Assembly (NCBI RefSeq): GCF_009659535.1
Contig: NZ_VJZZ01000005.1
Coordinates: 248,001-312,000 of the forward strand
Direction of reading: 5' to 3'
From: Aggregicoccus sp. 17bor-14
Lineage (GTDB): Bacteria; Myxococcota; Myxococcia; Myxococcales; Myxococcaceae
Length of the DNA: 64,000 nt
Position numbers and translations under genes: made by a program. Of this stretch, positions 25,765 to 58,709 are shown one piece after another (position 1 is the stretch's first letter; each line of letters opens with the position of its first letter). The notes below the pieces were generated by a model. That model was not told the origin of the DNA. It made no database searches and was given only the letters and a program-made list of their open reading frames with translations.

Positions 25765-27633
25765 CTAGCGCTCCAGAATCACGAACTCGACGCGGCGGTT
25801 CAGCTCGCGCCCAGTCGAGGTGAGGTTGGGGGCGATGGGGCGCGCGCCGCCGTAGCCGTTGACCTCGATGCGGCTCGCGTCGATGCCGGCGCGCACCAGG
25901 TAGTCCGCCACCGACTGGGCGCGGGTCTGGGACAGGCGCAGGTTGGTCAGCGCGTTGCCGCGGTTGTCCGTGTGGCCCTCGATGCGGATGCGCTTGATGT
26001 CGTTCTTCACGATCGCGCTCACCACCTGGTCCAGCAGCGGGTAGCTGTCCGCGAGCAGCGTGGCCTTGCCGGTGGCGAAGTGCACCTGCTGGAGGATCTG
26101 GATGCGGTTCTCCTTCACCACCACCAGGCTCTTGGCAGGCTCGGGGACGAGCTCGAAGGCGACCTTCAGCTCACCGCCCTCGGAGACCTGCACGTCGCGC
26201 GTCTGCGCGAGGAAGCCCTCGGCGGTGACGCTGACCGTGTACTGGCCTGCGGGGACCTCGAGCTTCGAGGGGCCGCGAGCGGCCGCCGGCAGCGACACCG
26301 AGTCCTCCTTCGGGCCCTTGAGCGTCACGGTCGCCGCCACCGGCTTGCCGCCCGCGCTGGCGCTGACCAGCAGCGCGGAGAGCTTCACCGCGGGCTTCAG
26401 CTGGAGCTCGAACTCCGCCGTCTGGCCGGCCACCAGCGTGAGCTGCTGCGAGAGCGGCTCGTAGCCCTCGTGCGAGACCTGCAGCGTGGCGAGCCCCGCG
26501 GGCAGGTCGTAGGTGAGGAAGCGGCCCGTCCCCGCGGCCGAGGCCACCGGCGGCAGGTCCTGCCCCTCCACCGTGACCAGCGCCCCGGCGAGCGGCTTGC
26601 CCGTCTGCGCATCCAGCACCCGGCCCGCGACGCGCGTGGGCTTGGGTGCCTCGGCAGGCGCGGCCGCGGCTGCACTGGCAGCCGCAGGCGCGGTGGCCGG
26701 AGCGGCGGCCCTGGGCGGCGGCGGCGTGAAGCCCACCACCTTCGTGCCCTCCGTGAAGCTCACGCCGAAGAGGATGCGGAAGTCGGGCGTGCCCGGCGCA
26801 CTCCCCGTGCCCAGCGAGCCGAGCCCCACCAGCTCGATGTTCTCCGCGAGCGCGTAGCGCGGGCCCGCGAGCACCTCGAAGATGCTCGGGCCGCCCTGCA
26901 GGAAGTGGCCGTAGCGCAGCGCCACCTCGCCGCGCAGCGCGCCCTCGGTGGTGGCGAGCCCGACGTTGGCCTGCAGCTGGTGGTGGATGGAGACGTCGCC
27001 GAGCGAGGCCGGCGGCCGCAGCGTCGCGCCGACCTCCGCCGAGGCGAGGAAGGCGGGAAGGCGCGGCAGGGAGAAGCGGCGGCTCGCGAGCAGGCGCGGC
27101 GAGAAGGTGAAGCCGCGCTCGCGCGCGTAGGCCCCTGCGTTGCCGAAGGGCAGCGCGCTCGCCGCCTGCAGCGCGAGGTCCAGCGGCGCGCCGTCCACGC
27201 TGCGCAGCAGCGCGAGGCGCGCGCTGAGGATGGGGCTGCCCAGGCCGCCGCTGGAGAGCCGCGGCAGGCCGAACTGCTGCAGGTTGTCTCCGTCCTGGTA
27301 CACGACGATGGGCAGCTGCAGCGCGAACTCCACGCGCTGGCCGAGCGAGTACTGCCGCAGCAGGTGCAGCGTGAGCCGCTCGCGCACCACCTCGCCCACG
27401 TCCTGCCCGTCCACGTGGAGCGTGAGCGGGCTGTATTCGTAGTGGGAGAGGATGGTCGAGCGGAAGGAGCCCGCGGGCATCAGCTCGCCGGCGCCCACCA
27501 CCAGCGAGCCGATGCCGGAGGGGTTGAGCTCGAGGCGCTCGAGGTCGAGGGTGTCCGTGGCCTGCTGCGCGCGCACCGGGGAGGCCGCGCACAGCACGCT
27601 CACGACGAGGAGGAGGAAGGTCTTCGAGCCCAC
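25765..27633 (-). CDS. OmpA-family outer-membrane protein with barrel and regulatory-like domains
   Basis: A 622-residue exported protein (GTG start; MGSKTFLLLVVSVLCAASPVRA signal). Residues about 25-300 look like an outer-membrane barrel (LTLHLLRQYSLGQRVEFALQLP, GALRGEVALRYGHFL). Then comes an Ala/Pro linker, then two PEGA/carboxypeptidase-regulatory-like sandwiches (VAGRVLDAQTGKPLAGALVTVEG and KLEVPAGQYTVSVTAEG). The last 120 residues form an OmpA peptidoglycan-binding domain (IEGHTDNRGNALTNLRLSQ, RVEFVILER). It should tether the outer membrane to the wall. It is divergent from the chaperone-usher-like operon, whose assembly could use such an anchor, but that link is inference. Confidence 0.8.
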   Translation of the reverse strand: MGSKTFLLLVVSVLCAASPVRAQQATDTLDLERLELNPSGIGSLVVGAGELMPAGSFRSTILSHYEYSPLTLHVDGQDVGEVVRERLTLHLLRQYSLGQRVEFALQLPIVVYQDGDNLQQFGLPRLSSGGLGSPILSARLALLRSVDGAPLDLALQAASALPFGNAGAYARERGFTFSPRLLASRRFSLPRLPAFLASAEVGATLRPPASLGDVSIHHQLQANVGLATTEGALRGEVALRYGHFLQGGPSIFEVLAGPRYALAENIELVGLGSLGTGSAPGTPDFRILFGVSFTEGTKVVGFTPPPPRAAAPATAPAAASAAAAAPAEAPKPTRVAGRVLDAQTGKPLAGALVTVEGQDLPPVASAAGTGRFLTYDLPAGLATLQVSHEGYEPLSQQLTLVAGQTAEFELQLKPAVKLSALLVSASAGGKPVAATVTLKGPKEDSVSLPAAARGPSKLEVPAGQYTVSVTAEGFLAQTRDVQVSEGGELKVAFELVPEPAKSLVVVKENRIQILQQVHFATGKATLLADSYPLLDQVVSAIVKNDIKRIRIEGHTDNRGNALTNLRLSQTRAQSVADYLVRAGIDASRIEVNGYGGARPIAPNLTSTGRELNRRVEFVILER

Positions 27634-27954: not shown

Positions 27955-28638
27955 ATGAAGAACAATCTGATTGCCGCGGTTCTGGTGTTTGGCTTTGCTT
28001 CCAGCGCGATGGCGGCCCCCGCCTCCTCGGACACCGGCAAGGTGACCATCAACGCGCACGTCTCGAGCAGCGTGTCGCTGAGCTTCGACAGCATGACCTC
28101 GGGCGTCACCGGCGGCCCCGCCAACGGCAAGCTGGACCACACGATCGACTTCAAGGACGTGGCGGCGACCACCGCGGCCACCTCGCTGAAGACCGAGGAC
28201 GTCGTGATGCGCCTGCGCTCCAACACCCCCTACGTCCTGCAGGCCGTCGCCTCGGTCACCAGCGATGGCGGCGCGAGCGGCGCCAATGCGCTCGGCCTCG
28301 ACGACATCGGCTTCGGCATCACCGACGTCGGCAACACCAGCGCCAACCTGGTGGACACCACGACGGACCACACCACGGACGCGACCACCTACAAGTACGA
28401 TCCGTCCAGTGCTGACGTCTCCACGGGCGAGGTGGCCTTCACCCACACCCTGCAGGACCTGCAGGCGGCGGCGGTCGACGTCGCGCAGGGTGGCCGCATC
28501 TCCAAGGGCGGCAACGTGAAGTCCGACAACAACTACATCACGGTCACCACCCGGTACTCGATCCTGCCCCAGTTCTTCGAGCCGACGACGAGCGACTTCG
28601 TCGCCGTGGTGAACTTCACCCTCGCCTCCAACCCGTAG
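27955..28638 (+). CDS. Exported pilin-like subunit, paralogue 1
   Basis: A 227-residue exported protein (signal MKNNLIAAVLVFGFASSAMAA). It shares with three neighbours an N-terminal strand (KVTINAHVSSSVSLSF), a central LDDIGFGI motif and a C-terminal pair (ILPQFFEPTTSDFVAVVNFTL). The protein is beta-rich and nearly cysteine-free, so it differs from disulfide-bearing spore-coat-U subunits though the layout is similar. It is the first gene of a four-gene operon that ends with a chaperone-like gene. Likely role: a secreted structural subunit. The start could also be the ATG at 27928, but the signal peptide begins at 27955. Confidence 0.75.
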   Translation: MKNNLIAAVLVFGFASSAMAAPASSDTGKVTINAHVSSSVSLSFDSMTSGVTGGPANGKLDHTIDFKDVAATTAATSLKTEDVVMRLRSNTPYVLQAVASVTSDGGASGANALGLDDIGFGITDVGNTSANLVDTTTDHTTDATTYKYDPSSADVSTGEVAFTHTLQDLQAAAVDVAQGGRISKGGNVKSDNNYITVTTRYSILPQFFEPTTSDFVAVVNFTLASNP

Positions 28639-28665
28639 TCGCAGTCCCCTCTCCCGGAACTCCCC

Positions 28666-29367
28666 ATGCCCAGGCTCTTCAGGCAGTACATCGCAGTCCT
28701 TCTGAGCAGCCTGGCGCTGGGGCTCCCGGGCCTCGCCGCGGCACAGTCGCAGGCCACTGACTCCGGCAGCGTGACACTCAACGCCCGCGTCTCGGGCTAC
28801 GTGGACATCGCTGCCGGCGGGCCTGCGAGCGTCACCACGGGCGGCACCGTCTCCGTCGTCAAGAACAAGGGCGACGTGCTCACGGGCATGACCATCGACT
28901 TCGGCGACGTCTCGCCGGTCAACACGAACCCGATGGTCAAGGCCACCGTGCCGCTGCGGCTGCGCTCGAACGTCGCGTACACGCTGTCGGTGAGCACCAC
29001 GGGCTTCAGCAACGTGGACCCGCTGGCCATCCAGCCCACGGACGTCGGCTTCGGCGTGGACAACGTGCGGCGCACGGACTCGGGCGTGAATGCCGGCACG
29101 GACACCATCGTCGCCGCCGTCAAGGGCGACCCCTCGTTGGACCCGGACGCGAACACCGGCACGCCCCGCTGGGACTTCGTGACCGCCAAGTCGCTGTCCA
29201 ACTACACGACCTCGAAGGCCGTGATGACCGGCCCGCGCATCATGCAGGTGGTGCCGGCCGCGAACGTGGGCGGCCTGTTGGTGGACACCTACTTCGCGAT
29301 CAAGCCACAATTCTTCACGCCTGGCTCCTTCACCACCACCGTCACGTACACCATCACCACGCCCTGA
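28666..29367 (+). CDS. Exported pilin-like subunit, paralogue 2
   Basis: A 233-residue exported protein, paralogous to its neighbours: VTLNARVSGYVDI near the mature start, PTDVGFGVDNV in the middle and FAIKPQFFTPGSFTTTVTYTI at the end. A signal peptide (RLFRQYIAVLLSSLALGLPGLAAAQ) precedes it. The region between the first strand and the DVGFG motif includes TIDFGDVSPVNTNPMVKATVP, which is also recognisable in paralogue 3. It begins 27 nt after paralogue 1, so both lie on one message. Confidence 0.75.
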   Translation: MPRLFRQYIAVLLSSLALGLPGLAAAQSQATDSGSVTLNARVSGYVDIAAGGPASVTTGGTVSVVKNKGDVLTGMTIDFGDVSPVNTNPMVKATVPLRLRSNVAYTLSVSTTGFSNVDPLAIQPTDVGFGVDNVRRTDSGVNAGTDTIVAAVKGDPSLDPDANTGTPRWDFVTAKSLSNYTTSKAVMTGPRIMQVVPAANVGGLLVDTYFAIKPQFFTPGSFTTTVTYTITTP

Positions 29368-29383
29368 GCGGGCGGAGTCCCGT

Positions 29384-30079
29384 ATGGCAGCGCCCTCCCG
29401 CAGCTCCCGGACTGGCGCGCTCGCATGCGGCGTGTTCCTGGTGCTCTGCGCGGCCGGGGCTTTGGCTGCGCCCTCGAGGGACTACGACATCGGCAGCGCG
29501 GGCCAGCCCACCATCACGGGCAGCCTCGGCGGGCGGGTCGTGGTCGGCGATCCCAGCCTCCTTGCGGACCTGAGCGTCACGGTGGACCTGGGTGAGCTCT
29601 CCCCGGTCAACCGCAACAGCATCATCAAGGTCGTGGTCCCCATCGCCATCCGCAGCGACGCCGCGTACCAGCTCGAAGTCGATGTGTCTTCGGGAGGTAC
29701 CGGCACCACCCTGGACTCGCCGCAGCTGAGCGACGTGGGCTTCGGCATCCAGAACCTGCAGCAGATGGGGCGCGCCAAGAAGTGCGCGCTCGCCAGCCAC
29801 CGCATCATGGCGCCCTTCGCCAATGATCCTGCGTTCACGGTGAGCTCGGGTGCTGGGCGGGCCAGCTTCCCCTCCTCGCTTGCCACCGTGGGCACCACCG
29901 CGGTCATCATGCAGGGGCCGCAGCTGAGCACGGGCAACATCAACCCCCGCACCACGGACAACGGCTGGCGCTTCGACGCCGTCTTCGCCCTCGTCCCCCA
30001 GTTCTTCGCTCCGGGCACCTCCACGGTGACCCTCACCTTCCGCATCTCGGCGTCGGGCACCAACTGGCCCTGCCTCTGA
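29384..30079 (+). CDS. Exported pilin-like subunit, paralogue 3
   Basis: A 231-residue exported protein (signal about 1-29). It keeps VDLGELSPVNRNSIIKVVVPIAI, SDVGFGIQNL and ALVPQFFAPGTSTVTLTFRI, and it is most like paralogue 2. It has the odd cysteine CAL and a C-terminal WPC, not shared by the others, so it may be a tip or adaptor subunit. It starts 16 nt after paralogue 2. Confidence 0.7.
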   Translation: MAAPSRSSRTGALACGVFLVLCAAGALAAPSRDYDIGSAGQPTITGSLGGRVVVGDPSLLADLSVTVDLGELSPVNRNSIIKVVVPIAIRSDAAYQLEVDVSSGGTGTTLDSPQLSDVGFGIQNLQQMGRAKKCALASHRIMAPFANDPAFTVSSGAGRASFPSSLATVGTTAVIMQGPQLSTGNINPRTTDNGWRFDAVFALVPQFFAPGTSTVTLTFRISASGTNWPCL

Positions 30080-30095
30080 GCCGCAGCTTCCCTTC

Positions 30096-30968
30096 ATGAC
30101 CCGCCCCGCCCTCTCGCTCCTCGCCCTCCTGTTCACTGTCCCCGCGCTCGCCCAGGCGCCGGCCCCCGCCCCTGCGGAGACCGCGGCGCCCCGCCCCAAC
30201 GAGCTCGCCCTCGCGCCCTCGCGCTTCGAGCTGCCCATCGCCCCGGGCGACGAGCAGACGGTGGTGGTGAACGTCATCTCGTCGGGCAGCGGCACCACGC
30301 CCCTGCGCCTGCGCGCGTCGCTCGGCGACTGGGCGCTCAGCGCCACGGGAGACATGAGCTTCGACAAGCCGGGCACCACGCCGCGCTCCGCGACGCCCTG
30401 GATGCTCTACAGCCCCGCGGAGCTCTCGGTGGCCCCCGGCCAGACGCACCCGGTGCGCGTGACCATCTCGGTGCCCAAGGACGCGGCGCCCGGCGACTAC
30501 ACCGCGGTGCTCTTCGTGGAGGAGCGCCCCGCGGACTTGAAGCAGCGCACCAACACCAAGCAGCTGATGTTCCACTTCCGGCTCGCCGCCATCTTCTACG
30601 TGATGGTGCCGCCCTTCACGCTGAAGGGCAGCCTCACGGGGCTGCGCGCCGAGGCCACCGCGCGCGGGCTCGAGGTCACCCCCTCTCTCAAGAACGAGGG
30701 CAACACCCACCTGCGTCCCGTGCAGTCCTTCCAGGTCGTGGACGGCAGCGGCAAGGTGGTGCTCGAGCAGGAGCCCACGGAGGCCTTCCCGGTGCTCGCG
30801 GGCACCACCACCTCCCAGGCGCTGCGCTCGCAGCTGCCCGCCCCTGGCGAGTACTCGCTGCGCTACCGCGTGGACTTCAAGGACGGCGGCAAGGTGGTGG
30901 AGGGCCGCACCAAGCTGGTGGTGCCGGCAGCCGCCCCTCCGGCGCCCGCGAAGAAGACGAAGCGCTGA
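30096..30968 (+). CDS. PapD-like periplasmic chaperone
   Basis: A 290-residue exported protein with an early strand LALAPSRFELPIAPGDEQTVVVNV, then repeated sandwiches (VRVTISVPKDAAPGDYTAVLFVEERP, LRYRVDFKDGGKVVEGRTKL). The layout (N-terminal proline-rich mature end, two Ig-like domains, basic C-tail) fits a periplasmic pilus-assembly chaperone, possibly of the alternate (CfaA/CooB-like) type. It follows three subunit genes by 16 nt and converges on the usher-like gene, with only nine bases between stops. Direct homology to a named chaperone is inference. Confidence 0.6.
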   Translation: MTRPALSLLALLFTVPALAQAPAPAPAETAAPRPNELALAPSRFELPIAPGDEQTVVVNVISSGSGTTPLRLRASLGDWALSATGDMSFDKPGTTPRSATPWMLYSPAELSVAPGQTHPVRVTISVPKDAAPGDYTAVLFVEERPADLKQRTNTKQLMFHFRLAAIFYVMVPPFTLKGSLTGLRAEATARGLEVTPSLKNEGNTHLRPVQSFQVVDGSGKVVLEQEPTEAFPVLAGTTTSQALRSQLPAPGEYSLRYRVDFKDGGKVVEGRTKLVVPAAAPPAPAKKTKR

Positions 30969-30977
30969 GCGGCGCCG

Positions 30978-33557
30978 TCAGAACTCCTTCACCTCGACCT
31001 CGACCGGCTTCGCGCGCACCGGCAGCAGCACTCCGCCCGTCTCCTGCGCGGGAACGATGGAGACCTGGAGCGCGCCAGCGGCCGCTTCCATTCCCTCGGG
31101 CAGGGTCTTCTGGTCGATGAGCACGGTGTGCTGCCCCTGCGGCAGATCGCCGAGCACGAAGTCGCCGTCCGGGCCGGTGAGGGTGTCACGGTTTCCGGCC
31201 ACCACGCGCACCTCACCAAGCGGCTGCTCGCCCTCGTCGACCTGGCCGTTGCCGTTCGCATCTAGCCAGACCAGCCCGGCGGCGCGCCCTGTGCGGATGA
31301 GGCGGAAGTCGACCACCGCGTCGCGGTCCGCGCGCAGCTGCACCTTCTGGTCTGCGCCGCTCAGCAGCGAGAGGTCCGCGCGCACGGTGAGCAGGTTGAG
31401 GTAGACCTTGTGCTCGCCCGCCAGCACGTTGCCGAGCCGGTAGACCCCGTTCTCGTCGGTGCGCGCCGTGTTGTACCCGTCCACGAGCACCTCGACGTTC
31501 CTGAGCGCCCGGTCCACGAGCGGGTCGAAGCGCCCGTCCAGGTTCACGTCCTGGTACACGCGTCCGGAGAAGCCTCCCACGCTGCTCAGCGTCTCCAGGC
31601 TGCGCTGCGCGGCGCTGCGTGCCGCGGGCGCCTCGAAGAGGGGCCCGGAGAGCTCCAGGAAGGCCTGCCCCGAGCGCTGGCTCTGGCTGTAGGTGAGCTG
31701 CAGGCGCTGGTTGCCGGGCAGGAGGGCCGAGAGCCCCACCCGCGCGAAGCTGGTGTACTCGCCGCGCTGGCGGCTGTAGCCCACGCCCGTCGTCACCCCC
31801 ACCCGGTCGGTGAAGAAGTTCGAGGTGAGCCAGTCCAGGCCGCCGCTCATCGAAGCGCCCGTCGAGAAGGTCTGGTACGCGCGAACGCTCGCGGTGGTGA
31901 AGGCGCGGGTGGCCCCCAGCGTGACGCTGCTCGAGGCGGGAGTGCCCGCGGTGCGCGTGCGCGAGAGGTTCGAGAACAGCTCGGTGCGCCCGAAGGTCTG
32001 GGAGACGTTCACGAGCGTGAACTCGCGCGTGCCCGTCTCGGCCTGGCGCCCGGTGCTGTGGCTCACCAGCAGCGAGGGCCACGAGGGCGAGCGGAAGAAG
32101 GTGAGCGTGCCGGTGACGTCGTGGTCGGTGCTCCCGCTCGGCAGGTCCAGCCGCTCCGCGTAGCGGCCGCTCGTCGAGAGCGAGACCCACCGGTGCACGC
32201 GCCAGCTCACGCCTCCGGAGTACTGGTTCAGCGGGCGCAGGAAGCCCGCCAGCTGGGGGCTGAGCACGTTCTCACCGATGTGACTGAAGCCCGCGTTGAG
32301 CGTGAGGGACTCCACCGGCGTGAGCGTCTCGGAGGCGTCCAGCATCAGCCCGGTGCCGCGCACGTCGCGGCCGTCCAGCTGCTGGCCCTGGAAGGAGCCC
32401 ATTCCGAGGTCGAAGCGGAACTGGTGCAGGTTGGTGCCGTACTGCACGCCGCTGGTGAGCACGCTGCCCTGGCGCTGGGGACCCCCGAAGTAGAGGCCGC
32501 CGAAAGAGCTGCTCAGCCGTCGACCCTCCGGTGACGGAGCGCGGCCCAACGTGAAGTAGCCGCCGACCACCGAGGTGTCGAAGTGCTGGGCCAGCGAGGG
32601 CGGCACCTCCGGCGGCAGCGCAGGCCGCGCATCCGAGCGAGTACGCCCGGCAAAGGTGGTGAGCTCCAGCGCTCCCAGCGGCTGACGCCACCATCCACCG
32701 CGCATCGCGGAGGTGAGGAAGGCGAGGTCTCCGCCCGTGCTCAGGTCACCGAACATCAAACGCTGCCCACCCGGGCGCTCGTAGGAGAGCAGCCCGGACC
32801 GGAACTCGAAGAGGCGACCTCCGGTGTCCGTGCCCGCGAAGTTGCTGTTGAGGTCCAGCCGCCCGTCGGCCGCGCGGCCCGATGCGGCCGCGTTGAGGCT
32901 GTGCGTGTACGAGCTGCCGCTGGAGCTGGCCGTGTAGCCGTACTTCGCCGAGTACAGCTCGGCGGGCCCGCGCCGCGAGCCCTCGCGCACCACCAATTGC
33001 GGAAGTCCGCGGTCCACGCGCACGGTGCCCTGCACGTCGTCCACGACCAGCTGCGCGTCGAGCAGCGCGCTGACCAGCTCGGTGGGGAGCATGAGGCCCG
33101 TGGGGTCCGCGGGGAACACCACCTCCGCCACGTTGCCCGCTACGAGCGTGGGGACGCCGTTCTCACTCACCTGCCCCGTCGCCGCGTTGAGCTGGGCGCG
33201 CACGCCCGTGGCGCGCAGCACCTCCACGGTGCGCGTGCTCGCGTCCACGCGCACGGTGTCACCCAACGCGCGCGCGACCACCACCACCGGCAGGAACAGC
33301 CGCCCGCCGCGCAGCTCCGCAGCGCTGTACGCCCCCGTGAGCAGCCGCCCGTCCACGGTGAGGGTGGTGGGCGTCCTCGCCCCGGCCGCCTCTTCGGGCG
33401 CAGCCGTCTGCGCGCGCGCGAGTGGCGCGGCGAGCAGGGCGGCGGCGAGGCTGAGGGTGGCTCGAGTGCGGATGGGAGTGACCCCGGTGAGGCGGAGGCT
33501 CGCTCCGATTCGCCCTGGCGGAAGGGGGGTGCCAGGACGGTGGAAGTTTACGGGCAT
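30978..33557 (-). CDS. Usher-like outer-membrane barrel with SdrD-like C-terminal domains
   Basis: An exported protein of about 859 residues. The N-terminal region (about 60-180) resembles a copper-amine-oxidase N-terminal-like domain (LLTGAYSAAELRGGRLFLPV, TRTVEVLRATGVRA). The middle (about 200-650) is a long series of barrel strands (RPGGQRLMFGDLSTGGD, FFTDRVGVTTGVGYSRQRG, RLQLTYSQSQRSGQAF). The end has two sandwich domains with Ca-binding-like motifs, VYQDVNLDGRFDPLVD and WLDANGNGQVDEGEQP, as in SdrD and CooC_C usher ends. Only one start, the ATG at 33557, gives a signal peptide (ATLSLAAALLAAPLARAQ), with a long n-region. It lies between chaperone and subunit genes. Confidence 0.6.
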   Translation of the reverse strand: MPVNFHRPGTPLPPGRIGASLRLTGVTPIRTRATLSLAAALLAAPLARAQTAAPEEAAGARTPTTLTVDGRLLTGAYSAAELRGGRLFLPVVVVARALGDTVRVDASTRTVEVLRATGVRAQLNAATGQVSENGVPTLVAGNVAEVVFPADPTGLMLPTELVSALLDAQLVVDDVQGTVRVDRGLPQLVVREGSRRGPAELYSAKYGYTASSSGSSYTHSLNAAASGRAADGRLDLNSNFAGTDTGGRLFEFRSGLLSYERPGGQRLMFGDLSTGGDLAFLTSAMRGGWWRQPLGALELTTFAGRTRSDARPALPPEVPPSLAQHFDTSVVGGYFTLGRAPSPEGRRLSSSFGGLYFGGPQRQGSVLTSGVQYGTNLHQFRFDLGMGSFQGQQLDGRDVRGTGLMLDASETLTPVESLTLNAGFSHIGENVLSPQLAGFLRPLNQYSGGVSWRVHRWVSLSTSGRYAERLDLPSGSTDHDVTGTLTFFRSPSWPSLLVSHSTGRQAETGTREFTLVNVSQTFGRTELFSNLSRTRTAGTPASSSVTLGATRAFTTASVRAYQTFSTGASMSGGLDWLTSNFFTDRVGVTTGVGYSRQRGEYTSFARVGLSALLPGNQRLQLTYSQSQRSGQAFLELSGPLFEAPAARSAAQRSLETLSSVGGFSGRVYQDVNLDGRFDPLVDRALRNVEVLVDGYNTARTDENGVYRLGNVLAGEHKVYLNLLTVRADLSLLSGADQKVQLRADRDAVVDFRLIRTGRAAGLVWLDANGNGQVDEGEQPLGEVRVVAGNRDTLTGPDGDFVLGDLPQGQHTVLIDQKTLPEGMEAAAGALQVSIVPAQETGGVLLPVRAKPVEVEVKEF

Positions 33558-33754
33558 GGGAGTGGAAGACCAATTCCCAGCCACCCCTTCTCCCCTGCCT
33601 GTTTGTCTGCCCTCCAGGAGAGCCCGGGACACTTCTACGACCCGGGGACAGGCCCGGGCCTGGCACACGAAAGGCCGAGTGTTTTCCAGAGGCTGCAGCG
33701 CGGGCACGGTGGTTGCTCTGCCCACCCCCGCGCACTCCGCTGGAGGTAGCCCCG

Positions 33755-34423
33755 ATGCTCCGCCCGATGACCGCCGCTCTCCTCCTGCTGAGCCTGAGCG
33801 CTGCGGCCCAGGATCGCGGCACGGTGCGCATCGTCGGCCACGTCTCCGAGGTGGCCTCGCTGCGCTTCCAGTCCAGCACCCTCGCAGGCGAGGGCGTCAC
33901 GGGGCAGAACGCGGGCAACTCGCTCAACTACACGCTGAACCTCGGCGACCTGCGCGAGGCCGAGGGCCGTCCCAACGGCGTCCACGGTGGCGTGGTGACG
34001 CTCGCGCTGCGCACCAACACCGCCTACGTGCTCACCGCCACGGTGCAGGGCTCGGGCTTTCGCGCGGGCCCGGGGGAGATCGGCCTCGGGGACATCGGCT
34101 TCGGCGTGCCCAGCGCCGCCATCACCCCTTCGGGAGACCACGCCCGCGCGGACGGCACCCAGGTGGTGAACGCGGCCAAGTTCGACAGCGACCCGCTCAC
34201 GGCCTCCACCGCCGGCGGCCGGCCGCACTACGCGGCGACGCTCGCGGACCTCGCGCACGGCCCCACTCCGCTGCTGCAGGGCGAGCGCATCTCCTACGGC
34301 GGCACCGTGAACGCGCCGAACAACGCGCTGCTCGTCTCCACGAACTACGCGGTGCACCCGCAGATGTTCCGCCGCAACGACCGCTTCGAGGCCACGGTCA
34401 CCTACACGCTGACCACCCCGTAG
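33755..34423 (+). CDS. Exported pilin-like subunit, paralogue 4
   Basis: A 222-residue exported protein (MLRPMTAALLLLSLSAAAQ signal; GGAGG before the ATG). It carries the same hallmarks as the operon subunits: VRIVGHVSEVASLRF, LGDIGFGVPSA and YAVHPQMFRRNDRFEATVTYTL. It lies divergent from the usher-like gene, across a 197-nt gap that must hold both promoters. A separate gene could let it be made at a different level, for example as a base or tip subunit. That is inference. Confidence 0.7.
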   Translation: MLRPMTAALLLLSLSAAAQDRGTVRIVGHVSEVASLRFQSSTLAGEGVTGQNAGNSLNYTLNLGDLREAEGRPNGVHGGVVTLALRTNTAYVLTATVQGSGFRAGPGEIGLGDIGFGVPSAAITPSGDHARADGTQVVNAAKFDSDPLTASTAGGRPHYAATLADLAHGPTPLLQGERISYGGTVNAPNNALLVSTNYAVHPQMFRRNDRFEATVTYTLTTP

Positions 34424-36879: not shown

Positions 36880-37908
36880 ATGCCCTCCCCGGATGCGCCC
36901 CAGACTCCCCCCGCGGGCCCCGCTCCCGCCGAGGCGACGCCGCGCCCGCCCCGGGCCGACGCGGTGCTCGGCGTGCTCAACGGCGTGCTGGGCGACTACC
37001 TGCAGCGCACCGGCAACGGGCTCGCCACGGCCATGGCGCTCCACGTGGACCATCGCCCCGTCGCGCTCGAGCCCGCGGCCCTGCGCGCCGCCTTCCCGCG
37101 CGCGAGCCCCCGCGTCGCGCTGTGGGTGCACGGGCTCGGCGTCACGGAGGCGGTGTGGGGCTTTCCGGGCGCGCCCCAGCAGTCCTACCCGGCGATGCTG
37201 GAGCGGGACGCGGGCTACACCCCGCTGACGCTTCGCTACAACACCGGCCTGCACATCTCGGAGAACGGCGCGGCGCTCTCGGCGCTGCTCGGGCAGCTCG
37301 TCGCGCACTTCCCCGTCCCCATCGAGGAGCTGGTGCTGGTGGGCTACAGCATGGGAGGCCTCGTGCTGCGCAGCGCCTGCCACGTGGCGGCGGAGGCCCA
37401 GGCCCCGTGGCTCTCACACGTGCGCCGCGCCGTCTACCTCGGGGCGCCGCACCTGGGCGCGCCGCTCGAGCGCCTCGGCCAGGGCGTGGCCCACCTGCTG
37501 CGTGCCCTGCCCAGCGCGTACACGCGCCTGGTCGCCGAGGTGCTGGACCTGCGCAGCAGCGGCGTGAAGGACCTGGGCTTCGCGAACCTGCTGCAGCAGG
37601 ACTGGGACGGGGCGACCCGCGAGCAGCTCTTGCGCAACCGCCGCCACCCGGTGCCGCTGCTGCCGGGCATCTCGCACCATCTCGTGGTGGGCACGCTGGG
37701 CCGCCACGAGCGGCACCTGCTCTCGCTGCTCTTCGGCGACGGGATGGTGCGGGTGGCGAGCGCCGCGGGCCGCGCGCCCGGGGGCCACCCGAGCCCCCTC
37801 TTTCCCCAGGAGCATGTGGCGGTGATGCCCGGCGTCGACCACCTGGGCCTCGCCCATCACCCGGACGTCTACGCCCGGCTCAGGGCGTGGCTCGAGGAGT
37901 CCCCATGA
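36880..37908 (+). CDS. Lipase-like alpha/beta hydrolase
   Basis: A 342-residue alpha/beta hydrolase. HGLG (84-87) is the oxyanion motif and the nucleophile is S157 in LVLVGYSMGGLVL. The YLGAPHLGAPLERL block is that of PGAP1-like and triacylglycerol lipases, and the catalytic His is likely in PGVDHLGLAHHPD near the end. The first 30 residues are Pro/Ala-rich. No signal peptide is visible, so it is probably cytosolic. The start is not certain (ATG at 36880; weak ribosome site). The next gene overlaps by ATGA. Substrate unknown; ester lipids are plausible. Confidence 0.75.
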   Translation: MPSPDAPQTPPAGPAPAEATPRPPRADAVLGVLNGVLGDYLQRTGNGLATAMALHVDHRPVALEPAALRAAFPRASPRVALWVHGLGVTEAVWGFPGAPQQSYPAMLERDAGYTPLTLRYNTGLHISENGAALSALLGQLVAHFPVPIEELVLVGYSMGGLVLRSACHVAAEAQAPWLSHVRRAVYLGAPHLGAPLERLGQGVAHLLRALPSAYTRLVAEVLDLRSSGVKDLGFANLLQQDWDGATREQLLRNRRHPVPLLPGISHHLVVGTLGRHERHLLSLLFGDGMVRVASAAGRAPGGHPSPLFPQEHVAVMPGVDHLGLAHHPDVYARLRAWLEESP

Positions 37909-49482: not shown

Positions 49483-50106
49483 ATGAAGCGAATGACCTGG
49501 GCCATCGCCACGGCAGCACTGCTCTCGGCGTGCGCCCACGAACCTGCAGCGGCGCACAGCGCACCACGGCCGACGGTGGCGCTGAGCCACGGCACGCCCG
49601 AGGAGCGCCTCACCGCCGAGCAGCTCGAGCGCCTCTTCGGCCGCTATGACCTCTCGCCCTGGCTCTACACGCGCAGCATCGCGATCGACGAAGAGAGCAT
49701 CCCGCACAGCCACCCGGTGCTGACGCTGCACACGCGCCACCTGCGCGACGACCTCCTGCTGCTCTCCACGTACGTCCACGAGCAGAGCCACTGGTACCTC
49801 GACCAGCACCGCGCGGCCACGGAGGCTGCGGTGGCCGAGCTGAAAGCACGGGTGCCGAGCCTGCCGGTGGGCTTCCCGGAGGGCGCCAACTCACTCGAGT
49901 CGTCCTACGAGCACCTGCTCGTCATCGCGCTCGAGGAGCGGGCGCTGCAGTACCTTGTCGGCGAGCTCCAGGCGAGACAGGTGATGGAGTTCTGGGCAGC
50001 GGACCACTACCGCGCGCTCTACCGCTACGTGCTCGACCACCGCTCGGAGGTCCGCCGCGTCATGCGCAAGAACGGCCTCGCGTCGCCGATCGACTCGCCC
50101 CGCTGA
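49483..50106 (+). CDS. Lipoprotein with HExxH metal motif
   Basis: A 207-residue lipoprotein (MKRMTWAIATAALLSAC, Cys17). The stretch LLSTYVHEQSHWYLDQ contains HEQSH, the HExxH zinc motif of metallopeptidases. A conserved-looking Glu-rich segment follows (YEHLLVIALEERALQYL). Active peptidases need a third ligand, which could be one of these glutamates. It begins 11 nt after the beta-helix gene, so it is probably co-transcribed. Whether it is a peptidase or only a metal binder is open. Confidence 0.6.
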   Translation: MKRMTWAIATAALLSACAHEPAAAHSAPRPTVALSHGTPEERLTAEQLERLFGRYDLSPWLYTRSIAIDEESIPHSHPVLTLHTRHLRDDLLLLSTYVHEQSHWYLDQHRAATEAAVAELKARVPSLPVGFPEGANSLESSYEHLLVIALEERALQYLVGELQARQVMEFWAADHYRALYRYVLDHRSEVRRVMRKNGLASPIDSPR

Positions 50107-50156
50107 GGCGCTCCCAGCGATGCTTTCGCGGATCGCCGTCGCCAAACAGGGCCTGT

Positions 50157-50666
50157 TTATCGGGCACCGGATTCTGGGGCGATCTCATAGAGGGCCCAGA
50201 TGGTGACCTTTCCATGGGGGTCAGCTGGCCACTCCTTCGACAGAAGAGTTTTAGCCAGTGCTGCATCGTGGAAAGCCAGCAGTCCATAGCCGTTCAGCCG
50301 CTCTGTGAGCGGCGCGAGTTGACCCGTCCACGGACCGCAGTTCAGCAGTGACGAGGTGCGTGTCTCGTCGGACAGGTCATGCCCGAGGAGTCGACAGTCA
50401 GGCCCCTCAGGAGGTGCCTTCTCTTGCTCCGCATCCAGGAACAGAAGGTGGTACTGGCACTCGCCCACGGCGCGGGGCAATTCCCGTAGAGCGTGCCGTG
50501 CGTCAGTGAGCGTCTCTACCTCGCGGGAGCCGCAGCCATCGACGTAGCTATTCAGCATGGCATCGAGCGTGCGCACTTCCTTGAGCTGCGGAAGGCCGAT
50601 GAATTTGAGGTACCCAGACCAGCCAGGGTCTCCCTCGCGAAACGTGAAGCGCGTGCTCACCCACAT
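50157..50666 (-). CDS. Hypothetical protein
   Basis: A 169-residue protein without signal peptide or membrane helix. It starts at MWVSTRFTFREGDPGWSGYLKF; the open frame continues 14 codons upstream to a GTG at 50708 without a ribosome site at either start. It has DDIS-like polar features, an acidic middle (LFLDAEQEKAPPEGPDC) and ends in LYEIAPESGAR. I recognise nothing. It converges with the HExxH lipoprotein and resembles single-copy immunity-like proteins in size, which is not evidence. Confidence 0.5.
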   Translation of the reverse strand: MWVSTRFTFREGDPGWSGYLKFIGLPQLKEVRTLDAMLNSYVDGCGSREVETLTDARHALRELPRAVGECQYHLLFLDAEQEKAPPEGPDCRLLGHDLSDETRTSSLLNCGPWTGQLAPLTERLNGYGLLAFHDAALAKTLLSKEWPADPHGKVTIWALYEIAPESGAR

Positions 50667-50823
50667 GCGGGCCCAATCTCGCGATTCCGGGGAAGGTGCA
50701 AGCACCACCGTCGTCTATTCGCGCGGCGCGCAGATCGCGCAAACAGGTAGCCAGGCTGCACGCACGTATGGCGAGAACCAGGGCGGAAGTCCCCACACCA
50801 CGCGCGGCGTGCCCGAAGCTGCG

Positions 50824-51351
50824 CTACTCCGCGCCCTCGTCCAGCAGCACGTCCGCGACGCTCACGCGGCCAGGGAGCACCTCGGTCACCGCGCAGGCCC
50901 CGGCCCCTGCGCGTTGGACGCACTGGGCGCAACCCTGCTCGTCCACAAGCACCAGTGCGTAGCGTCCCGGAGCAAGCGCGAGTGCATAAGTGTCGTGGTT
51001 CAGCTGGACTGAATCCGCATGGGCGGTGCCGAGCGATGCTTCAGGAAAGCTCAGGTACTCGCCGCCTGTGACGATGGAGAGCTGACACGTGTACGTCTCT
51101 GCGGGCGAGAAGCCGTCGCTCACGGGCACGGCTCGCAGCGAGACGCCGGGCGGCGAGATGTCGCAGTCCGAGAGACACCCCGGCGCGCAATTGCCCGTGC
51201 GCAGCGCCGCGCGGCCGGCCACGCCCTCGGTGATGCCGAGGTGCTGCGCCTCGCTCTCGGAGAGCCCGGCAGGGAGGTCTCCCGCCGCGCAGCCGCCCGC
51301 GAAGCCGAGTCCGAAGGCGAGGATGACGAGGAGCGCATTTCGCAGAGGCAT
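50824..51351 (-). CDS. Cysteine-containing lipoprotein
   Basis: A 175-residue lipoprotein (signal MPLRNALLVILAFGLGFAGGC, lipobox AGGC). A cysteine cluster lies in NCAPGCLSDCDISPPG, a further pair in CAQCVQ, and CAV follows; these suggest disulfides. Strand-like segments (TYALALAPGRYALVLVDEQG) suggest a small Ig-like or PEGA-like sandwich. It starts one base after the stop of the membrane protein gene upstream, so both form one operon. Confidence 0.65.
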   Translation of the reverse strand: MPLRNALLVILAFGLGFAGGCAAGDLPAGLSESEAQHLGITEGVAGRAALRTGNCAPGCLSDCDISPPGVSLRAVPVSDGFSPAETYTCQLSIVTGGEYLSFPEASLGTAHADSVQLNHDTYALALAPGRYALVLVDEQGCAQCVQRAGAGACAVTEVLPGRVSVADVLLDEGAE

Positions 51352-51352
51352 C

Positions 51353-52060
51353 TCAGGTTTCCTGGGCGGGATGAGGGAGGAGCAGCCAGAGGCCCACGGC
51401 GATGGCATGCGCCAGCGTGAGCGGCAGGTAGATGACGTCCGCGACCGGCGCGAGCCACGCGGCGCCGAAGAACATCGCTGCCAGACGCACTGCGCCCCGC
51501 ACGGCGTTGAGGACGAGGCCATAGCGCGCGAGCCGGGTCCAGCGGTCTCGCCCGCTCGCGGCCACGGCGAAGAGTGCGCATCCGAGCACGTGCGCGGCCA
51601 GCAGCGGCAAGTAGCTCGCGAGCTGTACAGACGTGAAGACGTCGATCCGCGAAGAGAGCGCCTCACGCATCGCAGGCGTCTCCAGCCAGGCACGTTGCCA
51701 CTGCGCGGCGAGCACCAGCTCGAGCCCGCGATCGACGAGCTCGATGCCGAGGAACAGCGTGATGAGCAGCAGCCCCGCGAGCGCCCAGCCGCTCTGGCGC
51801 AGGCGTCGGTACACCGCTGCGTAGCCGAGCAGCAGGCCCCAGAAGGTGACGTAGAGGAACACCGCTCGGAACCGGTCCGGGCTCGAGAGCGTGAAGGCGT
51901 AGGAAGCCGCGGTGTCGGAGTCCGACGGCGCGGCGCGCAGGACGAGTTCCTGCGTCACCTGGGCGAGCGCATAGGCGAAGAACGCGAGCGCTCCCACCTG
52001 CTCGAAGCGCCGGTTCGGCGCGGACGGCTGAATCTGCTCGGGCATCGCGGGAGCGAGCAT
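51353..52060 (-). CDS. Six-helix membrane protein, DUF4386-like
   Basis: A 235-residue polytopic protein with about six helices: VGALAFFAYALAQVTQELV, FLYVTFWGLLLGYAAV, GLLLITLFLGIELVD, ASYLPLLAAHVLGCALFAVAA, YGLVLNAVRGAVRLAA and VADVIYLPLTLAHAIAVGLWL. The order is like DUF4386 proteins, which are of unknown function, but I hold this loosely. Starts at ATG 52060 or 52045 are both possible. It is followed immediately by the Cys lipoprotein, and is divergent from the next membrane protein. Confidence 0.6.
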   Translation of the reverse strand: MLAPAMPEQIQPSAPNRRFEQVGALAFFAYALAQVTQELVLRAAPSDSDTAASYAFTLSSPDRFRAVFLYVTFWGLLLGYAAVYRRLRQSGWALAGLLLITLFLGIELVDRGLELVLAAQWQRAWLETPAMREALSSRIDVFTSVQLASYLPLLAAHVLGCALFAVAASGRDRWTRLARYGLVLNAVRGAVRLAAMFFGAAWLAPVADVIYLPLTLAHAIAVGLWLLLPHPAQET

Positions 52061-52163
52061 CGTGCGCCGTACTCTAGGCCAGCGAGCCACGCTCGCTCGA
52101 ATCCAGCCGCGCAGGAGGTGAGATCGAGCCACGCCTGGCTTGCGCTACTCTGCTCTCCACCTC

Positions 52164-52691
52164 ATGGCCGCCTCTCCCGAGTTCACGTTCAATGACCTGT
52201 GGCAGCACATGGGGCTCTTCGCCCGGCTCTTGGTCGGAAGCTGCGGGCTGCTGGTCCTGGTGTTGGGCGTGACCAGCCCCACGCGAACAGACATTCAGGG
52301 AGCCACCGAGCGCGTGCCTCCCGAAACGCTCGAGGCCGCCGCGAAGCTCGTCCGATGGCCCGCGCTGGGCTTGGTGGGCTCAGCGGCGCTCAGCCTGCTC
52401 GTGGGCAGCCAGTACCTTCACCGCGTGCTTCTGTTCCTCAGTACGGGCGTCCCGCCGCGCGCGGGGCAGCTGGACGGCTCACTGCTCCACCTCGCGATGG
52501 GCCTCGTGACCCTGGCAGGTGCAGTGGCGCTCCTCCGCCTGCATTTCCGTGCCGTGGTGGTGGCCGGCGCGACGTGCGCAGCCATCCCGTGCTTCGGCGC
52601 CGGCTTCGGCGTGGGGTTTCTATTCGCTCTCTGGGCGGTGCTGGTCCTCGGGCGCCCCGAGGTACAGGCGGCCTTCGCCCTTCGCCGCTGA
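52164..52691 (+). CDS. Membrane protein, hypothetical
   Basis: A 175-residue protein with four hydrophobic segments (LFARLLVGSCGLLVLVLGV, LVRWPALGLVGSAALSLLVG, LAMGLVTLAGAVALLRL, AVVVAGATCAAIPCFGAGFGVGF). The ATG at 52164 follows weak Shine-Dalgarno, and a TTG at 52140 is the other option. It is the last gene before a strong terminator and the tRNA fragment, and is probably part of the ordinary chromosome. No family was recognised. Confidence 0.55.
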   Translation: MAASPEFTFNDLWQHMGLFARLLVGSCGLLVLVLGVTSPTRTDIQGATERVPPETLEAAAKLVRWPALGLVGSAALSLLVGSQYLHRVLLFLSTGVPPRAGQLDGSLLHLAMGLVTLAGAVALLRLHFRAVVVAGATCAAIPCFGAGFGVGFLFALWAVLVLGRPEVQAAFALRR

Positions 52692-52713
52692 CAGCGAGGG
52701 CGGGGCAAAGAAA

Positions 52714-52743
52714 AAGGCCGCGGGTCTTTCGACCCGCGGCCTT
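52714..52743 (-). terminator. Intrinsic terminator with T-tract, downstream of the tRNA-Phe fragment
   Basis: AAGGCCGCGGGTC (52714-52726) pairs perfectly with GACCCGCGGCCTT (52731-52743) across TTTC. Read on the minus strand the loop is GAAA and the stem is followed by TTTTTCTTTG. This is the best rho-independent terminator in the window. It lies directly after the 3' end of the tRNA-Phe fragment, so it is probably the native tRNA terminator. It could also serve the membrane protein gene on the plus strand, which has an A-run upstream rather than a T-run downstream. Confidence 0.85.
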
Positions 52744-52756
52744 CAAGTCTTCATTG

Positions 52757-52798
52757 TGCCCAGAGACGGAATCGAACCGCCGACACGGGGATTTTCAG
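52757..52798 (-). other. tRNA-Phe 3' fragment: probable attachment-site remnant
   Basis: On the minus strand this reads from the anticodon loop (CTGAAAATC, anticodon GAA) through variable region and T-arm (GGCGGTTCGATTCCGTC) to the acceptor 3' side TCTGGGCA. That is the 3' half of a tRNA-Phe. CCA is not encoded. The D-arm and the 5' half of the anticodon stem are missing. A GCCCAG about 15 nt upstream could still pair with CTGGGC, so a deleted tRNA is the alternative to an att repeat. Integrating elements commonly duplicate exactly this half, and the gene content changes here. Confidence 0.75.
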
Positions 52799-53002
52799 GC
52801 CTAATTTAGCTGGGCTGGACCGCCACTCCCGAGGGAAGTGTGGCCGCTCGTGGCCGTCCATGGCCGGAGCAGTTGCCCGTATTTTGCCCATGGCTCTGCC
52901 TACGCGGTGGGACACGCATCGAGGTGCGCTGGCAGACTCCCCTGGGCGCCCAAGCGCGGGCTTCCGGCGCGCAGGGCGTCGAGATGTCAGAGAGACACCG
53001 TC

Positions 53003-54127
53003 ATGCCGATCAACTCCGGTAGAACCGTGCGCCCCAATCTTCCAGTGCTCTACCTCGATGAGTCGGGCAACACGGGTGACAACTACCTCGACGCCCAGCA
53101 GCCGGTGCATGTCCTTGCAGGCTTCCTCGTACCCGAGGGGCAAGAGCCCCGCCTGCGCCAGCTGCTGGATGCACTGCGCGAGGCGGGTGCTCCGCTTGAG
53201 TGCCACGAAGGGGGCGCAGGCGAGCTCAAATCGACGAAGCTCCTGAGGGCGCACCGCTGGGCTCGCGCGACGGCCAAGACGGTGTCCTCCTTGTGCAGCG
53301 AGTTCCTCCCCGTCAGCGTCATCGTGGAGAAGCGATTCTTCGCGGCTGTGAAGGTTGCCGAAACCCTTCTGCACCACGACACGAACCCCTTCATCTCCGC
53401 AGAACAACGCACCCCCGCAGCTCGAACCGAGCTCGCCGAGCAACTGAGCCGTCTCTCCGATGCCGCCCTGAAGGAGTTCTCGCGGGCGTATGCCAATCCA
53501 AGTGCCGACGCATTCGCGGCGTGCATCGGCGTGATGAAAGATGAGCTCGCCGCGCAAGGACAGGGCCACCTCGTGAGGCTCCTCCAGGGTGGGCTGGACG
53601 CGTTGCCTGCCATCGTCGCCGAGGAACAGCAGGAGATGGAGCTTTGGCACGTGGAGCACCCACGCTTCCCGGAGCACCGGGTGCGGGCTGGGGCCCGCTT
53701 GGCGCTGGATGCCTTCTTCGCAAGCCTGACCACCCTCGATAGGGTGCTTCGCCACGTCCATCCCCACCCAGCCAACATCGTGTACGACGAGGCAGAGGAG
53801 GGGCGCGCCTTCGAGCTTGCCCTCTGGGCAGCGCAGGAAGGCGGACACGTGAGGCACATCGGACGCGCGATTCCGGGCCTCTCCCATCAGGAAGACGCCC
53901 TTCAGGCTGCGGATCTCCTGGCGGGCATCCTGTACCGCGTTGCCAAGGATGGAGCGCTCAACGGCGTTGCTCCGACGGATTTGGATGCCGTGCTCGCGCC
54001 CCTCGTCAGCACCCCGCCCGCATCTGTTCGTATCGGGAGCAAGGCATTCTCCGACCGCATCAAGGTGATCGCGGCCCAGGCAGCCATCCGGCGCCAACGT
54101 GCAGGTAGATCGGAGGGAGATGGGTGA
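53003..54127 (+). CDS. DUF3800 domain protein
   Basis: A 374-residue protein with the DUF3800 signatures: VLYLDESGNTG near the start (D19-E20-S21-G22) and HQEDALQAADLLAGILYRV near the end. This domain has an RNase H-like fold, with the Asp residues as the likely catalytic metal ligands. It is common in mobile elements and in defence islands. The region upstream of the ATG is open but without family character. It is the first gene on the right of the tRNA fragment, 200 nt away. Target nucleic acid unknown. Confidence 0.8.
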   Translation: MPINSGRTVRPNLPVLYLDESGNTGDNYLDAQQPVHVLAGFLVPEGQEPRLRQLLDALREAGAPLECHEGGAGELKSTKLLRAHRWARATAKTVSSLCSEFLPVSVIVEKRFFAAVKVAETLLHHDTNPFISAEQRTPAARTELAEQLSRLSDAALKEFSRAYANPSADAFAACIGVMKDELAAQGQGHLVRLLQGGLDALPAIVAEEQQEMELWHVEHPRFPEHRVRAGARLALDAFFASLTTLDRVLRHVHPHPANIVYDEAEEGRAFELALWAAQEGGHVRHIGRAIPGLSHQEDALQAADLLAGILYRVAKDGALNGVAPTDLDAVLAPLVSTPPASVRIGSKAFSDRIKVIAAQAAIRRQRAGRSEGDG

Positions 54128-54185
54128 GTGGGCCGCTGGAGTCAGCCGAGTAATGTACGGTCGATCGGGAGTCCCACCATGAGCC

Positions 54186-55688
54186 ATGCGCTCTCGGAGC
54201 CCCGACGTGATCCGTGACCTCGAAGAGCAAGCCCTTCGTATCGACGATCCGCCCGCCCGGCAGTACATGCACGAGGCTTTGCGCTGCTATCACGCGGGTG
54301 CCTATCGGGCGGCAATCGTGCTCTCCTTCGCGTGCGCGTTCGATTACCTCCGGCGCAGCTTCGAGGAGCTGCTTGCCAGTGGAGGGGGATCCAAGGCTCT
54401 CCGGGAAGCCTTCAACAAGGTGCGGGAGAAGTTCGAGGCGCAGGATGCCTACGAACGGCAGCTTCTCGACGTGGCCGCATCGGCGGGTAGCGTCACTCCC
54501 GAAGAGAGAAAGCGCATCAACGCGCTCTTCGACTTCCGGAATCTCGCCGCGCATCCATCCGGCTATCCGGGCACTGCCGAGGACGCGCGTGCCGTTATCA
54601 CCACCTTGATCGACGTGCTCCTCGCCAAACCGGTGCTCCTCGGCGTCAGTGAACTCGAAGGCCTGCTGGGACGCCTTCAAACCAAAGGGTTCTTCCCCGA
54701 GACGGAGCTTCAGAAGGTTGCGGAGGTGGTCGCGCACGAGATGAAGCGCATCCACTCGACTGCTCACGCGGCGCTCGTGGCCAAGCTCTTCGCCCGCCAA
54801 GAAGCGCTGGTCTCAACGCCCTCGTATGGTGCAGGGCACGTCGAGAGGACCAACGTCCGGCGCTTCATCAGCGGGCTCTGGCGGTCAGCTTCCTCTTTGA
54901 AGCCGCTCCTACTCACCCGGCTAGAGCGGCTGGCAGAGAAGCCGGAAACGAGCGTGGACCTGCGGGAGATCCTCCTTGAGGCGCCTGAGCTCTTCAGCGC
55001 ACTGACCATCCTGACGCGCCGGCGCGTGCTCGACTATGCGCGGAGCGTGGCCGACACCATGGATGGATGGCCTCTGCTCTTCGCACTGGTGCAGGCCGAC
55101 GTGCTCCAGCAGGACGAGCGCGACTTCCTAATCAATAGCTCTCCGTCCTTGGCCAGCGCCTTGCCGCTCGGGCACGCCCTCACCCTCGACTGGCCCGAGC
55201 TGCGCCAGCGCGCCATCGCCGGCACGTTGCACCGTGTTGGCAGCTCCAACTTCTACACGGGCCGAGCGGCCATCAACGCCATCCAAGAGCTTCCGCCCGA
55301 GCAAGCGCAGCAATTCGATGACCGCGCGCAGGCGGAGTACGTCCTGCAGATCGCCAAGGCGGCGCGCAACACCACGGAACCGGCCCGCACCATGGTCCTG
55401 AACGACGGCCTTGGGTCTCGTGCGAGCTTTCTCGATGGCTTCACCCGGGTGCTCGATGCGCATGCGAAGCAGGTGCTGGAGGAAGGGTCGTGCTGGAAGG
55501 AGGTAGCCCAGCTCCTGCTCGCTTCGGGGCGGACGGACAGCATCCAGGCCCTACTGAGCCAGACTGCCAACCACAAGGCGGAGGAGCACGTCGGCGCAGA
55601 GACGTTCGCCTTGCTCATCAGCGAATGCCCGGAGGCAGCAACGGCGGCTCAGGCGAGGTTGAAGGCGCTGGAGGCCAACCCCGGCTGA
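54186..55688 (+). CDS. HEPN-like domain protein, large, hypothetical
   Basis: A 500-residue all-helical protein. The first 130 residues resemble an HEPN domain: helices around AALRCYHAGAYRAAIVLSFAC and the motif R118-N-x3-H123 in FDFRNLAAHPSGYPG, which is the R-x4-6-H of HEPN ribonucleases. The remaining 370 residues are helical repeats (VRRFISGLWRSASSLK, RDFLINSSPSLASALPL) with no named family. A 12-codon frame (ATG 54179) overlaps the start out of frame. It is 58 nt after the DUF3800 gene. Such pairs (nuclease plus sensor) are frequent in defence loci. Enzymatic activity is inference. Confidence 0.55.
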   Translation: MRSRSPDVIRDLEEQALRIDDPPARQYMHEALRCYHAGAYRAAIVLSFACAFDYLRRSFEELLASGGGSKALREAFNKVREKFEAQDAYERQLLDVAASAGSVTPEERKRINALFDFRNLAAHPSGYPGTAEDARAVITTLIDVLLAKPVLLGVSELEGLLGRLQTKGFFPETELQKVAEVVAHEMKRIHSTAHAALVAKLFARQEALVSTPSYGAGHVERTNVRRFISGLWRSASSLKPLLLTRLERLAEKPETSVDLREILLEAPELFSALTILTRRRVLDYARSVADTMDGWPLLFALVQADVLQQDERDFLINSSPSLASALPLGHALTLDWPELRQRAIAGTLHRVGSSNFYTGRAAINAIQELPPEQAQQFDDRAQAEYVLQIAKAARNTTEPARTMVLNDGLGSRASFLDGFTRVLDAHAKQVLEEGSCWKEVAQLLLASGRTDSIQALLSQTANHKAEEHVGAETFALLISECPEAATAAQARLKALEANPG

Positions 55689-55789
55689 AGCAGAGCACTC
55701 ACCCTGTGATTGGTCCTGTGCTGGGACCACCTGGATTTCGTGTTATGTTAGGGTTCCAACTTCTGGAGACCGGGGGGGGGACTAGCTCA

Positions 55790-56899: not shown

Positions 56900-56920
56900 C
56901 CGGCCTTGGATGGTAGCACC

Positions 56921-57256: not shown

Positions 57257-57259
57257 CCC

Positions 57260-57877: not shown

Positions 57878-57986
57878 CGACCTTCGGCCGATCGAATGAA
57901 GGCAGGCCTGCTTAGGCAAAGTCGGCGCGCATTGCGCCACTCCCCCCGCCTACGCTTGCGCTCCCCCACCAGCCACGAGCCCCTCC

Positions 57987-58562: not shown

Positions 58563-58709
58563 GCCGGAAGTAGCGATTGTTCCACCGGCCCTCCGCGAGG
58601 CTGCCGAGGGCCTAAACTCAGCAGGCTGAAGCTCATTAGGCCCAGGCCAGCCAACTGGCACATGACCTGCGACCACCGAGCGTAGCGCGACACTCGCAAG
58701 GACCATCCA

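Follow-up and report, generated by a model that had tools for sequence, protein, structure and literature searches.

Gene content and setting of the locus

The locus lies in a 64,000-nucleotide window, the whole stretch of DNA analysed here, from Aggregicoccus sp. 17bor-14. Six clustered genes code for four related exported proteins (S1 to S4), a chaperone with two Ig domains, and an outer-membrane barrel. S1 (27955..28638, +), S2 (28666..29367, +), and S3 (29384..30079, +) form a tight operon with the gene for a PapD-superfamily-like, periplasmic chaperone (30096..30968, +), in which the intergenic gaps are 16-27 bases. The barrel gene (30978..33557, -) is convergent with the chaperone gene and its end is located 9 bases beyond, while its start is separated by about 200 bases from that of the divergent S4 gene (33755..34423, +). 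The ATG at 33557 is the only in-frame ATG, GTG, or TTG up to the end of the signal peptide, giving a barrel protein of 859 aa. The first-pass annotation had described three subunit genes in one operon that closes with a PapD-like chaperone gene, and a fourth divergent from an SdrD-tailed barrel; the ORF calls agree with this cluster, the paralogy is real, and the gene set recurs in Acidobacteriota. In the host genome (6.9 Mb, 38 contigs) the barrel is single-copy and the subunits are only these four.

Three observations concern the surroundings of the locus. A tRNA-Thr (GGT) gene, which is a possible integration site, is located at window positions 37395-37489 (-), about 3 kb from S4. The G+C content is 62-68% in window positions 50000-60000 vs. 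72-75% elsewhere, and this may be an acquired segment. An OmpA-family protein with CarboxypepD_reg/PEGA domains is encoded at window positions 25765-27633 (-), adjoining the operon on its left. Relatives of this protein were multicopy in 25/25 genomes searched, and synteny via its gene was therefore uninformative.

The four exported proteins are true paralogues, with pairwise BLASTP E-values of 3e-29 (S1/S4), 7e-13 (S1/S2), and 9e-24 (S2/S3), and S2, S3, and S4 are 26-36% identical to S1. Among the features previously attributed to all of them, the D(I/V)GFG(I/V) and PQ(F/M)F motifs are indeed present in 4/4 subunits, but the N-terminal strand is absent from S3, and the FxxxVT(Y/F)T ending, which fits well in S2 and S4, fits only loosely in S1 and S3. 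The subunits were also thought to lack a disulfide. This holds for S1, S2, and S4, which have no cysteine pair, but not for S3, whose mature part contains two cysteines. Two core cysteines, one of them the last residue, are found in 8/8 S3-type and 0/15 S2-type proteins of Acidobacteriota, and the pair in the window S3 is equivalent. The two residues probably link the C-terminus to a mid loop through a disulfide.

The distribution of the gene set is patchy. The subunit profile matched 1/195 genomes of the window's own phylum, namely the window's own. No full-length barrel beyond the window's own was found in these 195 genomes, the other 10 matches being short and mostly in the tail domains, and no match was found in the viral contigs searched. 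Scanning genome contigs with the chaperone alignment gave 11 loci. Those from Blastocatellia (L058; chaperone 51%) and Pyrinomonadaceae (L059; chaperone 44%) are orthologous to the window locus, that from a proteobacterial MAG (L060; chaperone 30%) is distant, and the remaining eight matches are weak or incomplete. The L059 barrel is 37% identical to the window barrel over its length, and the barrel profile had 10 matches at E<=1e-10 in 119 genomes of the same order. The subunit, chaperone, and barrel profiles matched together in 8/13 Acidobacteriota loci fetched, and the cluster is therefore not due to chance; the remaining five loci are cut by contig ends or are without a part. The L086 locus copies the layout and strands of the window exactly, and no other barrel is as close to that of the window (44%).

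Among 396 genomes taken from the Acidobacteriota phylum, the barrel profile gave 11 matches at 1e-20, of which two were already known, one (G505) came in two pieces spanning most of the barrel, and eight lay mainly in the tail domains. Nine loci from this search and the L060 contig made up ten distant loci. The profiles for the subunit (mostly shorter), the chaperone, and the SdrD-tailed barrel all matched in 10/10 of them, although the subunit matches of L060 are not independent, because its own subunits trained the short-subunit profile. Both the gene set and its conservation are thus observed directly. In the tree, the window chaperone branches next to the Acidobacteriota members of its group and not among them (support 85/62), which gives no direction to a possible transfer from Acidobacteriota. 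Separately, relatives of the window genome have a second pilus-like locus type (L053 and L014/L002), in which a PapD_N chaperone adjoins a barrel with an SdrD/CarboxypepD_reg tail and no Usher match (866 aa in L053).

The chaperone and the barrel

None of the window proteins directly matched a PapD, usher, or pilin/subunit family in Pfam or NCBIfam, the Pfam matches of the chaperone were weak and Ig-like only, and PDB sequence searches with the window proteins gave nothing useful. In the profile-profile comparison, a chaperone profile of 11 family members matched a profile of eight archaic PapD_N chaperones from related genomes with a probability of 97.3% (E 1.9e-11) over 188 columns covering both domains, and the score was 86 vs. 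12-17 for a reversed and five shuffled controls. One of the eight archaic chaperones was checked directly (PapD_N E 7e-17). The chaperones of L053 and L014, which were found via the chaperone profile, exceed the PapD_N cut-off.

Three residues, P107, R43, and R162, are conserved in 11/11 members of the chaperone family, and the aligned archaic residues are proline in 8/8, arginine in 6/8, and arginine in 8/8, respectively. One proline, in domain 1, is described as the sole invariant residue of the chaperone superfamily in the available text of a review (PMC4654587), and P107 is likely to correspond to Pro59 of CsuC. The same text gives Arg89 as a mark of archaic and alternative chaperones (PMC4654587); no residue of the window chaperone clearly corresponds to it in the profile-based alignment. 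The assignment of the window chaperone to the PapD superfamily as a distant member is well supported at the sequence level.

The match to archaic chaperones, together with the archaic systems contained in relatives, might indicate an ordinary chaperone-usher system of the archaic (sigma, spore-coat-U) type that has diverged strongly. However, the window subunits had no Pfam match to SCPU, the subunit profile, from which two fragments of the L091 locus were left out, reached a profile-profile probability of only 4.8%, the barrel has no Usher match, and the Pfam PapD_N and Usher families had zero matches across the whole host genome. We consider this explanation very unlikely.

The barrel protein consists of a Cu_amine_oxidN1-type N-terminal domain, the barrel, and two SdrD_B/CarboxypepD_reg C-terminal domains. 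Matches to Cu_amine_oxidN1, SdrD_B, and CarboxypepD_reg were found in 9/9 aligned barrels, in agreement with the copper-amine-oxidase-like N-terminal region noted earlier from the sequence. An earlier proposal was to search the barrel against usher families. PF00577 (Usher) matched 0/9 aligned barrels, and no plug-size insert was seen in their alignment, but the last strands and the two tail domains resemble those of archaic ushers. The barrel profile, which leaves out the partial or remote barrels of L084, L091, L092, and L093, matched a profile of eight archaic ushers with a probability of 82.6% (E 9.7e-6); the match spans the last strands and the two C-terminal domains, which follow each other alike in both. 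Its score was 56 vs. 18-25 for the controls, and reversed or shuffled profiles gave probabilities of 0.1-0.7%. The neighbouring OmpA protein, which itself has CarboxypepD_reg domains, reached only 0.7% against the archaic usher profile.

When the parts were compared with archaic ushers separately, the probability was 40.5% for the tail domains alone, 2.9% for the barrel alone, and 1.1% for the N-terminal domain alone, and the latter two gave no usher match above noise in the profile-profile comparison. A putative role of the barrel as an usher therefore rests on its position, its tail domains, and its gene company, and is partly supported. Two distant barrels, L123 (E 1.3e-6) and L126 (1.2e-4), reach the archaic usher profile directly, in the tail domains. 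No N-terminal domain match was found in the distant barrels, G505 having a weak Cu_amine_oxidN1 match below the cut-off. An AlphaFold2 model of the barrel from two sequences had a pLDDT of 34.7, which is too low for any reading. Amphipathic-strand peaks numbered 25-31 in the window barrel vs. 35-40 in the longer stretch of the archaic ushers, a measure that is too coarse for a strand number.

Donor-type strand and predicted fold of the subunits

S1, S2, and S4 carry an N-terminal donor-type strand, the form of which is G-x-V-x-(I/L/M)-x-A-x-V in S1 and S2, and a typical N-terminal extension reads Q-x-T-T-G-T-V-x-M-S-A-T-V-S. S3 begins at the first core strand. The spacing between cleavage site and first core strand was scripted on 33 rows, comprising 9 S3-type rows, 16 S2-type rows, and 8 rows without a core-strand motif, which were read by eye only. 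It was 1-7 residues in 8/8 measurable S3-type rows, and 2 residues by eye in the ninth (L087), which was not measurable by the script. In the S2-type, it was 14-21 residues in 13/13 measurable rows (3/16 were unmeasurable), and two S2-type rows also offer a nearer alternative cleavage site, at 4 or 5 residues. One strandless subunit per locus was found in 9/9 close loci and, by eye, in 7/7 distant loci where two or three subunits could be read. A subunit without the N-terminal strand could only be the first one, i.e., the tip. S3 is therefore proposed as a tip subunit, receiving a strand but giving none, and such an accept-only subunit would directly explain the single strandless subunit per locus.

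The AlphaFold2 model of S2, built from nine sequences, had a pLDDT of 82.5 and a pTM of 0.83. The N-terminal strand was modelled at residues 7-16, and the mean pLDDT of the first two blocks of ten residues was 60 and 71. In the Foldseek search of the PDB, the top five matches were FimA monomers, including the wild-type solution structure, and these were the sole matches at E<=0.001, with probabilities of 0.96-1.00 and low query-normalised TM-scores (0.28-0.39). One of them, 6erj, is titled self-complemented, and we take the remaining FimA monomers to be likewise self-complemented. In the structure prediction suggested earlier as a check on the subunits, the outcome that would have spoken against the fibre reading, a self-contained fold without a donor strand, was not seen. 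The chaperone-usher-like reading of the subunits is fairly supported by the modelled likeness to self-complemented FimA and by the apparent donor-strand anatomy.

VIA aligned the S2 model with FimA at Z 7.0-7.5 (130-135 residues at 3.9-4.3 Å), and Z was 7.6 for TLP-1b, 6.1 for CfaE, 5.9 for the Pyrobaculum pilus, 5.7 for TasA, and 5.6 for CsuA/B; a Z below 8 is middling and not decisive by itself. Several proteins on the list of VIA matches, which includes these five, are fibres built via strand donation, and TLP-1, the Pyrobaculum pilus, and TasA are not known to need a PapD or usher. The S2 model fits these three about as well as FimA, and the barrel has no usher family match or recognised plug. 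Both points would be expected if the subunits assembled by usher-free strand donation in the style of TasA or archaeal pili, with the chaperone blocking early assembly and the barrel serving as an export pore or anchor. We regard such assembly as unlikely, however, as in the loci whose context is complete the subunits go together with the PapD-superfamily chaperone and the barrel with its usher-like tail.

The N-terminal stretch of S2 also appears as a strand within a confident monomer fold, and so a self-contained monomer is conceivable. The exported proteins could then be stand-alone surface or matrix proteins with complete folds, and the chaperone and barrel generic envelope proteins travelling along. 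Nevertheless, the best matches are monomers of a pilin, FimA, in self-complemented form, and this explanation offers no reason for the consistent loss of exactly the N-terminal strand in one subunit per locus. It is the least probable of the explanations considered here.

Proposed pathway and relation to known systems

Taken together, the locus probably codes for a chaperone-usher-like pathway, known here from sequence alone, that would make a surface fibre by donor-strand exchange. The first-pass annotation had already read the locus in this way, and its reading stands well for the chaperone, fairly for the subunits, and only in part for the barrel. S1 to S4 would reach the periplasm via their signal peptides, where the PapD-like chaperone would lend them a strand and prevent aggregation, and the SdrD-tailed barrel would stand in for the usher at the outer membrane. 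In known pathways, the incoming complex is bound by the N-terminal domain of the usher and the growing base rests on the pair of C-terminal domains, as given in the available text of PMC9452303. In the proposed pathway, the Cu-amine-oxidase-N-like domain of the barrel may recruit the incoming complex, and the two C-terminal sandwich domains may hold the base of the growing fibre. S1 and S2 would form the shaft, S3 would be first in and located at the tip, and S4, encoded beside the barrel, might be a further shaft subunit or else form the base. Polymerisation, the order of the subunits, and the role of the barrel are what we infer here. Judging from its class, the product may serve as a thin adhesive surface fibre or a matrix fibre.

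The archaic (sigma) spore-coat-U/Csu pathway resembles the window locus in having a PapD-superfamily chaperone by profile, exported Ig-like subunits with a donor-type strand, and a barrel with a pair of sandwich domains at its C-terminal end. The window locus differs from it in its subunits, which are unmatched to SCPU and, in S1, S2, and S4, without the cysteine pair, and in its barrel, which has a Cu_amine_oxidN1-type N-terminal domain and no PF00577 match. FimA of the classical type 1 pilus, specifically as self-complemented monomers, is the best Foldseek match of the S2 model. However, the identity is 10-14% in the structural alignment, the window subunit is larger (about 205 residues mature), and the chaperone and barrel belong to other families than those of the classical pathway.

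Two groups of plasmid loci are also comparable. Polaromonas plasmids (L045, L046) have an operon in which DUF4402 proteins are accompanied by a pilus-type chaperone and a barrel annotated as "carboxypeptidase-like regulatory domain". These loci share with the window the gene plan, the SdrD_B/CarboxypepD_reg barrel tail, and a related chaperone, but the DUF4402 subunits are unmatched to the window subunits, which had no PF14352 match and a profile-profile probability of 0.4%. DUF4402, of which no mention was found in the open-licence literature, is likely a fibre subunit, because it shares an operon with a pilus-type chaperone and a barrel. In Deinococcus plasmids (NW-56, AB2017081, and D. psychrotolerans; L012, L043, L044), four-gene loci annotated as hypothetical or "carboxypeptidase-like" contain a related chaperone (profile-profile probability 99.6%) adjoining an SdrD-tailed barrel and exported proteins. 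Their exported proteins are not recognisably related to the window subunits and look like another subunit family, and the NW-56 barrel differs in having other N-terminal Ig-like matches.

Since the PF00577 feature of ushers was not found in the barrel, the locus is classed as working like a chaperone-usher system and is not assigned to any described group. The best reading is a strand-donating fibre system that belongs to none of the classical, alternative, and archaic groups. The earlier remark that no described fimbrial type has such a combination agrees with our search, as none was found in the open-licence literature, nor was any description of SdrD/carboxypeptidase-regulatory-type, plugless, or new-class ushers, of chaperone-usher systems in Acidobacteria, or of archaic systems in Myxococcus. 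It is quite possible, although we hold this view tentatively, that these loci form a further main chaperone-usher branch, present in Acidobacteriota, Deinococcota, a myxobacterium, and other groups. Such a branch would combine a PapD-type chaperone, strand-donating subunits with a strandless tip, and a plugless SdrD-tailed usher, in which a Cu-amine-oxidase-N-like domain for recruitment may be present or absent.

Most known chaperone-usher pili come from Proteobacteria, and archaic ones also from Cyanobacteria and Deinococcus-Thermus, according to the available text of PMC4654587. With the present loci, the range of strand-donated fibres would come to include Acidobacteriota, and names could be given to many genes now annotated as "hypothetical" or "carboxypeptidase-like regulatory domain". 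The missing donor strand is a clean sequence test for a tip subunit. A related pathway whose barrel is without the usher family signature would reveal which parts of an usher are needed at all.
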